Source: Denitromonas halophila (GTDB lineage Bacteria > Pseudomonadota > Gammaproteobacteria > Burkholderiales > Rhodocyclaceae). Taken from it: a stretch of 64,000 nt of DNA. The DNA lies in the NCBI RefSeq assembly GCF_007625155.1, contig NZ_VMNK01000015.1:372001-436000 (forward strand), read 5' to 3'. This document shows, one piece after another, positions 29,019-34,585 of this stretch (position 1 is the stretch's first letter; the number at the start of each line of letters is the position of its first letter). Made by a program: the position numbers and the translations under genes. The notes under the pieces were generated by a model. That model was not told the origin of the DNA. It made no database searches and saw only the letters and a program-made list of their open reading frames with translations.

Positions 29019-29279
29019 TCAGTGTTCTTTCTCGGGAAGCACGATGTTGACCTCGAGTACCTCGTAGTTGTCCTGACGCTCAAGGTTGACCTTGATATCG
29101 TCCGGGTTGACGTTGACGTACTTCGAAATCACCGCGATCAGGTCACGCTGGAGATCCGGCAGAAAGTCCGGTGACCCGTCACGCGGGCCGTGCTCGCGGG
29201 CAATGATCAGTTGCAGGCGTTCTTTGGCCAGATTTGCCGTCTTGGGTTTGCTGCCAAACAGCATGCTGAGCAGGGACAT
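29019..29279 (-). CDS. minE: Cell division topological specificity factor MinE
   Basis: 86 aa. The start [15 protein letters not shown] is the membrane-targeting helix; [14 protein letters not shown] is the MinD-binding segment, and [19 protein letters not shown] the dimer core. MinE drives pole-to-pole oscillation of MinCD by activating the MinD ATPase. It is last in minCDE, 1 nt after minD. Confidence 0.97.
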
Positions 29280-29280
29280 T

Positions 29281-30096
29281 TCACTTCCCTCCGAACAGGC
29301 GCTTCATCAGGCCCGGCTTTTCGTAGGTCGTGTAGCGCATGGGGCGCTCTTCGCCCAGGAAGCGGGCGACCACGTCCAGGTAGGCCTCGGACACGTCGGT
29401 GCCCTTGAGGTGCACGGCCGGTGATCCCTGGTTGGAGGCGTGGAGCACAGCTTCGGATTCGGGGATGACGCCGATCAGTTCAACACGCAGCAGCTCCTGC
29501 ACGTCCTTGTAGGAGAGCATTTCGCCGTCTTCGACGCGCTTGGCCGAATAGCGGGTGATCAGGAGATGCTCCTTGACCGCGTCCATGCCGTCCTTGGCAC
29601 GCTGCGACTTGGATTGCAGGATGCCGAGGATGCGATCGGAATCGCGCACCGAGGATACTTCGGGGTTGGTGACAATGATCGCCTCGTCGGCGAAGGTCAG
29701 TGCCATCACGGCGCCGCGCTCGATGCCGGCGGGGGAGTCGCAGACCACGTAGTCAAAGCCCATGTGCTCGAGTTCCTTGAGCACGGACTTGACGCCTTCT
29801 TCGGTCAGCGCGTCCTTGTCGCGGGTTTGTGAGGCCGGCAGGATGAACAGGTTCTCGCAGTGTTTGTCCTTGATCAGCGCCTGACTCAGCTTGGCCTCGC
29901 CGTTGACGACGTTGATCAGGTCATACACCACGCGGCGTTCGCAGCCCATGATCAGGTCGAGGTTGCGCAGGCCGACGTCAAAGTCGATGACCGCAGTTTT
30001 GAATCCGCGCAGGGCCAGGCCCGAGGCGAACGCTGCGCTGGTGGTCGTCTTGCCGACGCCGCCCTTGCCGGACGTTACTACGATGGTTCGAGTCAC
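29281..30096 (-). CDS. minD: Septum site-determining ATPase MinD
   Basis: 271 aa. The deviant Walker [13 protein letters not shown] is at residues 10-21, followed by [16 protein letters not shown] and [10 protein letters not shown]. The C-terminal amphipathic membrane-targeting helix is [14 protein letters not shown]. It recruits MinC to membranes to block septa away from midcell. It lies 27 nt after minC. Confidence 0.98.
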
Positions 30097-30123
30097 GATA
30101 CTTCCTTCCTGTGAGTGCCGTGC

Positions 30124-30906
30124 TTATGCAGTCTGCAGCGGCGCAATCGTCAAAATCGGGTTGTCGCCTTCGCCCTTGAGCCAGGCCTGGGCGGTTTTGC
30201 CGGCCACGGACTCGGGGATGCCTTTTTCGAAGGTGCGATAGACCCCGGCGATGGAGACCAGCTCGGGGCCAAAATTGGTGCTGAACACGCGGGCGCGGGT
30301 GTTGCCCTGTGCGCCGGCCAGCGCGCGACCGCGCAGCGGGCCGTAGCAGTGAATGCTGCCGTCGGCGATGACCTCCGCGCCGTGGCTGACGCCACACAGC
30401 AGCACGAGATCGCCGCCACGGGCATAGGCCTGCTGGCCGGAGCGCAGCGGGCGGTCGATGATGAGCGTGGTCGCCGCAGCGGCCGCGACAGGCGCAGCCG
30501 CCGCGGGTGCTTCGACCACCGGTGCGGGTGTCGGTGCAGGTGCAGCGGATGCCGGCGCCTCGGGCGCGCTGATGCTGGCGTTATCGGCATCGAGCACGGC
30601 CAGGCCAATCTTGCGTGCGCCTTCAATAAAGGCTTCGGGCAGATTGCTTACGCCCACCGGTTGCAGGCGGTAGCGACGCAGCAGGCTGGCAATCCCGGGC
30701 CAGTCGATGCGCTCTGGCGTGTTGGCCAGCTCGGCAAAATCGAGAATGGTCGCTTCACGGTTGAAGAAGTCGGGCATGCCGCCGAGCAGGGTGTGCATGG
30801 CGTCGGCCAGACGCATCGGGTCGGTATCGCGCAGGCGCGCGGTCATGACGCCCAGTGTTGCGCCCCGGAATTCTATGGGTTTGTTTGATGCGGAAGCTGG
30901 GTTCAT
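30124..30906 (-). CDS. minC: Septum site-determining protein MinC
   Basis: 260 aa from ATG 30906; the longer open frame runs into hslO. The N-terminal domain (residues about 8-105) inhibits FtsZ. An alanine- and proline-rich linker (about 115-150) joins it to the C-terminal beta-helix with SGQQAYARGGDLVLLCGVSHGAEVIADG, the MinD-binding and dimer domain. The linker is longer and more Ala/Pro-rich than in E. coli. Confidence 0.95.
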   Translation of the reverse strand: MNPASASNKPIEFRGATLGVMTARLRDTDPMRLADAMHTLLGGMPDFFNREATILDFAELANTPERIDWPGIASLLRRYRLQPVGVSNLPEAFIEGARKIGLAVLDADNASISAPEAPASAAPAPTPAPVVEAPAAAAPVAAAAATTLIIDRPLRSGQQAYARGGDLVLLCGVSHGAEVIADGSIHCYGPLRGRALAGAQGNTRARVFSTNFGPELVSIAGVYRTFEKGIPESVAGKTAQAWLKGEGDNPILTIAPLQTA

Positions 30907-30994
30907 TCGGGGCCGATGAGCTGTCAAATCCTGCGAGTTTACTGGCCGTAGCGGCTGGGGGCAAGATTCCGGTGGAATCTCTCCGTCCGCAGGT

Positions 30995-31864
30995 TCAGTG
31001 TTGGGTGGGCGGCGCGTCGGGGGCGGCGAACAGTTCGTGGATGGCGTCGGCGTCGAAGCGGTAGGTGTGGTTGGACATGTCGTCGTGAATCTCGACCACA
31101 CCTTGGGTTTCGATCACCGATTCGAGCTCCTGGCGCCCCAGTCCTCGCAGCATGGTCTTGACCTTTTCGGGGTCGGCGGGCCAGCGGTGAAGCACCGGGC
31201 GCGGGGTGAATACACGCACCGTTTCTTCGTGAAACAGCCGGGCCAGTACGTCTTCGGGGGGCAGGTTGCGCAGCTCGTCGGGTTTGACCGTGGCGGCCAG
31301 GCTGGTGACGCGCGCCCAGCCGTCGGGGTCGCGCTGGTCGGCGTCGGGCAGCTTTTGCAGAAACAGGCCGGCGGCGGTGTCGCCATTGGCCACCAGCCAT
31401 AGTGCGGCGGGTTGTTGTTCGGATTGCGCCAGATAGTGCTCGAAGACGGCGGCGACGGTATCGCCTTCGACTGGCACGAGGCTCTGGTAGGGTTGATCAA
31501 GGCCGGCGACGTCGAGCGTCAGTTGCAGGTGGCCATCGCCAATCAGTCCGCCCAGCTCGCTGCTGTCGACGGCTTCGTCGGTTTTGGCATAGCCGCGCAG
31601 ATTGAGCGCCTCGGTGCAGTCGACCACCATCAGCGAGAGCGGGCCGTGGCCTTGCATCTGAAAGGTGAGGCGGCCGGGCTGCTTGAGGTTGGCCGACATG
31701 ATCGCGGTGACCGCGGTCAGCTCGCCGAGCACGGCGCGCACGGCCGGGGCGTAGCCGCGCTGGGCGGTCATGGCGCGCCAGGCGTCGTTGATCTGGACGA
31801 TGCTGCCGCGGATGTCCAGATCGTCAAACAAGAAGGGCTGGACGAGGCTGTCTTCGCGCAGCAT
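30995..31864 (-). CDS. hslO: Hsp33 family chaperone HslO lacking the zinc/redox cysteines
   Basis: 289 aa with the full Hsp33 body: VQINDAWRAM near 24, LTFQMQGHGPLSLMVVDC near 66, and TVRVFTPRPVL near 214. In classical Hsp33, CxC and CxxC in the C-terminal domain bind zinc and switch the chaperone on under oxidation. Here the CxC site reads RWPAD (about 227-231) and the CxxC site HDDMSN (about 260-265); the only Cys in the protein is Cys83. Spacing and flanking residues are kept, so this is loss of the ligands rather than truncation. It overlaps the upstream ArsC-family gene by 1 nt. Confidence 0.92.
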   Translation of the reverse strand: MLREDSLVQPFLFDDLDIRGSIVQINDAWRAMTAQRGYAPAVRAVLGELTAVTAIMSANLKQPGRLTFQMQGHGPLSLMVVDCTEALNLRGYAKTDEAVDSSELGGLIGDGHLQLTLDVAGLDQPYQSLVPVEGDTVAAVFEHYLAQSEQQPAALWLVANGDTAAGLFLQKLPDADQRDPDGWARVTSLAATVKPDELRNLPPEDVLARLFHEETVRVFTPRPVLHRWPADPEKVKTMLRGLGRQELESVIETQGVVEIHDDMSNHTYRFDADAIHELFAAPDAPPTQH

Positions 31865-32220
31865 CAGCGGGGCTCCGTGAGTTCGGTGGCGTAGGTGTCG
31901 GCGTTGAAGCCCACCAGCAGGCGACCATCGCCGGTGTCGAGCACGGGGCGTTTGATCAGGCTGGTGTGGGCGGCCATCAGTGCGATGGCGTCGGCATCGG
32001 TGTCGATCTGGCGGGCTTCGTCGGGCAGCTTGCGCCAGGTGGTGCCGCGGGTGTTCACCAGCGGGGTGCGACTCACGCGGGCGACCCAGTCGGCCAGCGT
32101 GGCGGCGTCGATGCCATCGCGTTTGTAATCGTGGAAGGTGTAGGCGATGTGGTGGCTGTCGAGCCAGGTAAAGGCCTTCTTCATGGTGTCGCAGCTGCGG
32201 ATGCCGTAGATGTGGATCAT
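31864..32220 (-). CDS. ArsC/Spx-family protein, YffB type
   Basis: 118 aa from ATG 32220, which matches the YffB start (IHIYGIRSCDTMKKA); ATG 32247 is an alternative. The single Cys in RSCDT (near residue 9) and the NTRGTTWRKL and IKRPVL segments are family marks. YffB resembles arsenate reductases but lacks the usual second active-site setting; its substrate is uncertain. It overlaps hslO by 1 nt, so the two thiol-linked genes are coupled. Confidence 0.88.
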   Translation of the reverse strand: MIHIYGIRSCDTMKKAFTWLDSHHIAYTFHDYKRDGIDAATLADWVARVSRTPLVNTRGTTWRKLPDEARQIDTDADAIALMAAHTSLIKRPVLDTGDGRLLVGFNADTYATELTEPR

Positions 32221-32269
32221 GTTCGTGTCGTGTGCGTTGGCAGGCATTGTCTCAGAAAACCCCAAGTAC

Positions 32270-34585
32270 TTATTTTTTCAATGCTTTGGCGAGTGCGGCG
32301 GCCATGTTGCCGTGGCCGCGGGCGTCGTCCTTGCGTGGCGCGCGATCGGCGCGCGGGGCCGCTTTGGGGCGGTCGGCGGGTTTGCGCTCGGGGCGCTTGC
32401 GCGCGTCGGCCGGGGTGTCGGACAGGCGCATGGTGAGCGCGATGCGTTTGCGTGGCAGATCGACTTCGAGCACCTTGACCGGCACCACATCGCCGGCTTT
32501 GACGACGCTGCGCGGGTCTTTCACGAAGGTGTCGGACAGCGCGGAGATGTGCACCAGACCGTCCTGATGCACGCCGATATCGACGAAGGCACCGAAGTTG
32601 GTGACGTTGGTGACCACGCCCTCCAGCACCATGCCTTCGGTCAGGTCGCTCAGTTTTTCGACGCCGTCGCGGAAGCTGGCGGTGCGGAAAGCCGGGCGGG
32701 GGTCGCGGCCGGGCTTGTCGAGCTCGGCGAGGATGTCATTTACCGTCGGCTCGCCGAAGCGATCATCGGCATAGCGCTTGGTATCGAGCCCCTTGAGCGT
32801 GCGGCTGTCACCGATGATGCTGCCCACATCGCGCTGGATGTCGGCGAGGATCTTTTCGACCAGCGGATAGGCTTCCGGGTGCACCGCCGAGGCGTCGAGC
32901 GGGTTGCTGCCGCCAATTACGCGCAAGAAGCCGGCGGCCTGTTCGAAGGTTTTCTCGCCCAGGCGCGGCACGGCCTTGAGCGCGCGCCGGTCGGGGAAGG
33001 GGCCGTGGCTGTCGCGGTGGGCCACGATGTTGTTGGCCAGCGTGCTGTTGAGGCCGGAGATGCGGCTGAGCAAGGCGGCGGAGGCGGTGTTAACGTCGAC
33101 GCCGACCGCATTTACGCAGTCTTCGACCACCGCGTCGAGCATGCGCGCCAGGCGGGTCTGGTTTATGTCGTGCTGGTACTGGCCAACGCCGATGGATTTC
33201 GGGTCAATCTTGACCAGTTCGGCCAGCGGGTCTTGCAGGCGGCGGCCGATGGAGGCAGCGCCGCGCAGGCTCACGTCGAGATCCGGAAACTCCGCTGCGG
33301 CCAGTGCCGAGGCCGAATACACCGAGGCGCCGGCTTCGGACACCATCACCTTGGTGAGTTTCAGTTCCGGATGGCGCTTGATCAGCTCGGCGGCGAGGCG
33401 GTCGGTCTCGCGCGAGGCGGTGCCGTTGCCGATGGCGATCAGGTCGGCGCCATGCTTTTTGGCCAGGCGGGCGATCTCGGCCATGGCGCCGTCCCAGTCG
33501 CGGCGCGGTTCGTGCGGGTAGATGGTGGCGGTGTCGATGAGCTTGCCGGTGCCGTCGACCACGGCCACTTTGACGCCGGTGCGCAGGCCCGGATCGAGGC
33601 CGATGGTGACACGCGGGCCAGCCGGGGCGGCAAGCAGCAGATCCTTGAGGTTGCCGGCGAACACGCGGATGGCTTCTTCTTCGGCGCGTTCGCGCAGGCT
33701 GTTCATCAGTTCGAGTTCGAGATGCACGGCGATTTTCACCGACCAGGCCCAGCGCGCAGTCTCCACCAGCCAGCGATCGGCCGCGCGGCCGGTGTCGCGG
33801 ATACCGGCGTGGCGGGCGACCAGCGATTCGCAGGGGCCCAGCTCGCCGGCGGGCGGTGGATCGGGCAGCTCAATGCTGAGCCGCAGCATGCCTTCGTTCC
33901 GCCCGCGAAGCAGTGCCAGCAGGCGGTGCGAGGGGATGTGGCCGACGGGTTCGGAGAAGTCGAACCAGTCACGGAATTTGGCGCCCTCGGCCTCCTTGCC
34001 TTCGACCACGGCCGAGACGATGCGGCCGCGCTCGTTCAGCAAGCTGCGCAGGGCGTCGAGTAGCGCGGCGTTTTCGCTGAATTGTTCGATCAGGATCTGG
34101 CGCGCCCCGTCGAGGGCGGCCTTGGTGTCGGCGATGCCGGCTTCGGTGTTGAGATAGCGCGTGGCCTCGGTCTCTGGCGCCAGCGTGGGGTCGGCGAGCA
34201 ATGCCTCGGCCAGCGGGCCTAAGCCGGCTTCGCGGGCGATCTGGGCCTTGGTGCGGCGTTTGGGCTTGTAGGGCAGGTAGAGGTCTTCGAGGCGCTGCTT
34301 GGTGTCGGCTTCGATAATCTGCACGCGCAGCGCGTCGGTCATGACGCCTTGCGACTCGATGGATTCGACGATGGCGGCACGGCGGGACTCGAGCTCGCGC
34401 AGGTAGCCGAGGCGGTCTTCCAGTGTGCGCAGCTGGGTGTCGTCAAGGCCGCCGGTGACTTCCTTGCGGTAGCGGGCGATGAAGGGCACGGTGGCACCTT
34501 CGTCGAGCAGGGCAATGGCGGCCACCACCTGACGTTGAGTGGCCTTGAGTTCGTCCGCCAGGCGGTGTTCGATAGAGAGGGGCAT
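32270..34585 (-). CDS. tex: RNA-binding transcriptional accessory protein Tex
   Basis: 771 aa, normal length. Domains in order: N-terminal helical ([20 protein letters not shown] type, 1-300), YqgF/RNase H-like domain near 325-450 ([17 protein letters not shown]), helix-hairpin-helix near 490-560 ([16 protein letters not shown]), and S1 domain near 645-720 ([29 protein letters not shown]). The S1 domain binds RNA. The C-terminus is Lys/Arg-rich. The last 49 nt before the ArsC-family gene are non-coding. Confidence 0.96.

Follow-up and report, generated by a model that had tools for sequence, protein, structure and literature searches.

An Hsp33 chaperone that lacks all four switch cysteines in Denitromonas halophila and its relatives

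Hsp33 is a stress chaperone that is normally activated when oxidants hit a zinc ion bound by four cysteines. What, then, becomes of the switch when all four are missing? The question is raised by hslO, the Hsp33 gene, in a stretch of 64,000 nucleotides from Denitromonas halophila (assembly GCF_007625155.1, contig NZ_VMNK01000015.1, positions 372,001-436,000), which we call the window and whose numbering we use for all coordinates. An initial annotation had proposed that every zinc-binding cysteine is lost, with RWPAD in the place of CxC and HDDMSN in that of CxxC. Alignment to four-cysteine relatives bears this out: W228, A230, D261 and S264 stand where those have C-C-C-C, and the CxC and CxxC zinc ligands of a canonical redox-regulated Hsp33 are absent.

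30995..31864, minus strand: hslO, Hsp33 with all four switch cysteines replaced (open reading frame, profile match, alignment)
31172..31189, minus strand: HRWPAD, residues 226-231, replacing xxCxCS (Cys1 to W228, Cys2 to A230; alignment)
31067..31087, minus strand: HDDMSNH, residues 260-266, replacing xCxxCxx (Cys3 to D261, Cys4 to S264; alignment)
31274..31291, minus strand: linker motif T192xxxxE197, kept (alignment; motif named in PMC7423844)
31232..31240, minus strand: linker motif R209-L210-F211, kept (alignment; motif named in PMC7423844)
31616..31618, minus strand: C83, within the chaperone body and the protein's sole cysteine (alignment)

An intact Hsp33 without zinc ligands

The hslO frame starts with ATG and encodes 289 amino acids with zero internal stops. 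Its product belongs to the Hsp33 family by a whole-length match to the Pfam HSP33 profile (PF01430), residues 8-271 covering profile positions 3-273 of 273 with 237.5 bits against a cut-off of 21.4. The body, the linker and the C-terminal domain of the Hsp33 fold are all present, the last at full length, and both linker motifs named in PMC7423844, TxxxxE and RL(Y/F), are kept; the chaperone body is intact and the C-terminal domain has the right length, as had been claimed. With this profile and these motifs the protein resembles canonical Hsp33 (HslO) from Escherichia coli, Bacillus subtilis and Thermotoga maritima, and its predicted full-length fold is close to 1VZY and 1VQ0. Unlike them, it lacks the four zinc and redox cysteines and scores 199.1 bits against the HslO equivalog NF001033, whose cut-off is 244. 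On the same model a two-cysteine relative (L073) reaches 221.2 bits, below the cut-off, and a four-cysteine relative (L002) 275.9, above it. Since the NCBI HslO equivalog excludes the window protein and the two-cysteine form and admits the four-cysteine relative, the protein is, judging by its sequence, a member of the Hsp33 family that is not filed as redox-regulated HslO.

A sequencing error, or a copy decaying beside a canonical Hsp33, had been named as what could undo the finding, and we regard either as barely credible. A PF01430 search of the whole genome (4.39 Mb, 34 contigs, completeness 100) gave one match, the window gene, and no second canonical hslO was found. The nearest records are 99% (L031, a Zoogloeaceae bacterium) and 96% identical (L032, Denitromonas ohlonensis), and D. 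iodatirespirans (L034, 85%) comes next among named species. Because L031 and L032, which are other assemblies, carry identical W/A/D/S motifs, a sequencing error is very unlikely. Decay is ruled against by purifying selection on the switch domain, the open frame and the lack of a canonical second copy. What can be said for it comes from relatives with small genomes, whose replacements are more erosive and in whose lineages some late decay is possible.

Distribution of the loss among relatives

Hsp33 serves as the textbook example of a thiol-zinc switch, and the literature calls its four cysteines 'absolutely' (PMC4735815), 'completely' (PMC8282892) or 'fully' conserved, the last in a survey of 1579 homologues with fewer than 10 that lack the second (PMC7423844). 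The available portions of PMC10490939 and PMC4516975 add nothing further on the cysteines of bacterial Hsp33, and our literature search found no report of an Hsp33 that lacks all four. The closest case is the algal HSP33 of Chlamydomonas (Segal and Shapira 2015, via PMC7423844), which has lost one cysteine along with zinc binding and reportedly has a heightened sensitivity to mild heat or oxidation; that case concerns a eukaryote and one cysteine, ours a bacterial clade and all four.

In the first two collections, which comprise 110 loci and include copies of single genomes, 81 loci have no switch cysteine, 20 have two and nine have four, one of these nine being cut after the first pair. The titles of the cysteine-less records include Denitromonas, Thauera, Azoarcus, Aromatoleum, Pseudothauera, Zoogloea, Uliginosibacterium, Niveibacterium, Cognatazoarcus and a Propionivibrio. 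We then searched wider ranks with A4, a profile built from the zero- and two-cysteine domain. At family level, 259 of 297 genomes match it at 1e-15. The 87 distinct family genomes that were read comprise 49 with none, three with one, 35 with two and 0 with four switch cysteines, in agreement with the suggestion of a lineage-wide loss; because these loci were chosen by score or by hand (the best-scoring 30, then the weakest scorers, then a hand pick, not a random draw), the split is no estimate of frequency. Two chosen loci, L257 and L322, contain no gene. A PF01430 search likewise gave zero matches in thirteen family genomes that A4 does not match, and some relatives in the family seem to have no Hsp33 at all.

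Outside the family the full set of cysteines prevails. At order level 311 of 399 genomes match A4, 39 of them with at least 86 bits; 33 of these 39 were read and hold 31 two-cysteine and two cysteine-less forms. Among the 272 below 86 bits, 49 were read (17 chosen as next in score, 20 weak scorers, nine from the first collection and three from the phylum sample), and the 48 complete copies all have four cysteines, the remaining one being a cut copy with the first pair. At class level eight of 369 genomes pass 1e-21, a cut-off that would miss lower-scoring divergent cysteine-less forms: the window genome, G039, two two-cysteine genomes (L161 and L162) from f104, a family other than that of the window, and four with four cysteines. 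Finally, 76 of 110 genomes sampled across the phylum have an Hsp33, and all were read: 74 have four cysteines, G039 has two and the window genome none.

The two-cysteine forms, found in the family of the window and in f11, f16, f22, f43 and f104, share with the window protein a clade, mostly D261 and in part the yffB neighbour described below. They differ from it in retaining Cys1 and Cys4, as do all 65 distinct two-cysteine domains read, with D (60) or N (5) at the Cys3 position; a disulfide or a Cys2Asp2 metal site is possible there. The one-cysteine forms (L303, L318, L329) keep Cys1 and have Ala or Gly for Cys4. In the residue counts, C83 is kept in 66 of 80 cysteine-less and 20 of 20 two-cysteine loci; the window protein has no other thiol, and this one could act as a minor redox site. 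Conservation of the linker motif residues is as high in the cysteine-less forms as in four-cysteine forms, and H226, D261 and H266 are invariant across the 80 cysteine-less loci.

Descent of the reduced forms and their neighbourhood

In trees built on the chaperone body, with the switch domain excluded, the two-, one- and zero-cysteine forms make up one clade with Shimodaira-Hasegawa-like approximate likelihood ratio test (SH-aLRT) support of 99 (70 rows) and 100 (93 rows). These are quick trees without bootstrap, and ten near-copies or cut loci had been dropped from the 110 for the first trees. The tree with support 99 holds 23 of 83 cysteine-less, 48 of 53 two-cysteine and 33 of 119 four-cysteine rows. 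That with support 100 has 24 hand-chosen cysteine-less rows of the main clade and leaves aside 12 two-cysteine rows, namely L030 and copies, as well as some of the copies among the other cysteine-less rows, L318 and L319 having been lost at the body cut. L030, labelled as two-cysteine in the tree with support 99, falls outside the 70-row clade and is a stump of the four-cysteine type cut by a contig end; it was excluded from the neighbour and residue counts. Because this stump was mislabelled, the approximately unbiased tests of the clade (p-AU 0.50 with all rows, 0.24 without f104) say little. L235 (G255) is the one genome among nine read in f43 with a four-cysteine Hsp33, which groups with the four-cysteine forms, the other eight having two; replacement or transfer would account for it.

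The last pair of cysteines was lost repeatedly. Support for the cysteine-less group of the window as one clade is modest on the body (SH-aLRT 80-83) and reaches 98 with all columns, and a single clade of this group with the cysteine-less L108 (Propionivibrio) is rejected (p-AU 0.015); L108 thus appears to have lost its pair separately, although it could be partly recombinant. Yet other replacements occur in the small-genome genera g16, g501, g517, g524 and g536. The change between none and some cysteines happens five times in the best tree; well-supported branches force only two changes among the other cysteine-less rows. The simplest order suggested by the sequences is four to two once, then two to one or zero repeatedly, so that Hsp33 would have lost its cysteines in steps with the gene kept intact. 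The initial annotation mentioned neither forms with two or one cysteine nor the single clade, nor the repeated loss of the last pair. Apart from this, the switch motifs are at their most irregular in the small-genome loci L308-L319 (1.4-2.4 Mb where read), which looks like a relaxing domain.

These data also bear on whether a metal site without cysteine (for example H226, D261 and H266, with D231) could have replaced the four-cysteine site and made a thiol-independent metal switch. The invariance of the three residues in the 80 loci speaks for it, as does L108, which has D261, H266 and a Cys at 226, a support that weakens if L108 is partly recombinant. Other cysteine-less genera lack H226 or H266, and we hold such a site to be quite improbable.

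Three neighbouring genes accompany hslO:

31864..32265, minus strand: yffB-type gene (ArsC/Spx-like), upstream of hslO with a one-base overlap (open reading frame, profile match)
32270..34585, minus strand: tex, upstream of yffB (open reading frame, profile match)
30124..30906, minus strand: minC, downstream of hslO (open reading frame; gene name presumed)

We take the frames downstream of hslO to be a minC-minD-minE run, minC first. The coupling to a YffB-type thiol protein that had been noted is confirmed: the genes overlap in TGATG, although the true yffB start may be an inner ATG, and the product, an ArsC family reductase equivalog match (129.3 bits, cut-off 121), has a single Cys in the motif IRSCDTM. 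Among 81 cysteine-less loci, yffB lies nearby on the hslO strand in 75, minC in 73 and tex in 65 (29019-34585, minus strand, in the window); minC is near hslO in just one of 20 two-cysteine loci, many of which have shorter flanks. Counted with copies, yffB is beside hslO in 77 of 83 zero-, 23 of 52 two- and 0 of 74 four-cysteine loci, by tblastn with the window yffB in flanks of about 1.5-3.5 kb, where a diverged yffB could escape. This distribution fits a pairing that began within the two-cysteine stage; the pairing is a fact of descent and no proof of function. The Hsp33 of a record titled Nitrosomonas mobilis (L037) falls in the tree among copies of the window genus and has yffB and tex in common with them, through gene transfer or a misbinned contig.

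How the protein may be switched

The initial annotation held that such an Hsp33 must be constitutive or switched differently. 'Must be constitutive' does not follow, because the release of zinc is not enough by itself to activate Hsp33 (PMC10598452); according to the part of PMC8282892 available, oxidation of the zinc centre is also insufficient and an added unfolding condition is needed. Loss of zinc leaves room for constitutive activity but does not entail it. A constitutively open, active holdase, in which the zinc-less switch domain and the linker stay unfolded, seems doubtful to us: an unneeded domain should drift, yet the switch domain is constrained, and a structure model predicts it folded and closed. 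Both the model and the constraint on the replacement motif agree better with a folded switch domain than with an open one, without proving it.

We would give even chances to a functional Hsp33 whose metal-free switch domain is closed at rest and opens in response to protein-unfolding stress rather than thiol oxidation. Cys2 and Cys3 would have been lost first, Cys3 mostly to Asp, and Cys1 and Cys4 later, in the clade of the window to Trp, Phe or Tyr and mostly Ser, respectively. The zinc site would thereby have been rebuilt as a packed core without metal, H-x-[WF]-P-x-D ... DD-[LM]-S-N-H, holding the linker docked on the substrate-binding face and the protein off at rest. Upon protein unfolding (heat, acid), its only trigger, the linker would melt and bare the binding face, giving an ATP-independent holdase.

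The main rival is a permanently closed form, no general holdase, that keeps the role of reduced Hsp33 in binding EF-Tu and unfolding it for Lon, thereby curbing translation. Binding and unfolding of EF-Tu were specific to reduced Hsp33 and went through its folded switch domain (PMC8614738), and a zinc-free domain that oxidation cannot open would remain in a reduced-like state, in keeping with the constrained motif and the folded model. However, that work used Hsp33 of the E. coli type, and the linker motifs, which a holdase needs, are conserved as in four-cysteine forms. We consider the closed form unlikely, and opening by unfolding stress remains our preferred reading for the window protein.

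For the clade as a whole we propose, tentatively, that an oxidant-activated holdase became a redox-independent, 'reduced'-closed protein, a pure unfolding sensor or an attenuator of EF-Tu and translation, its thiols removed stepwise and the last pair lost several times. With its two-, one- and zero-cysteine members, this natural clade uncouples the oxidation input of a dual sensor from its unfolding input, and it offers ready-made proteins for asking what Hsp33 does when its switch is not oxidisable.
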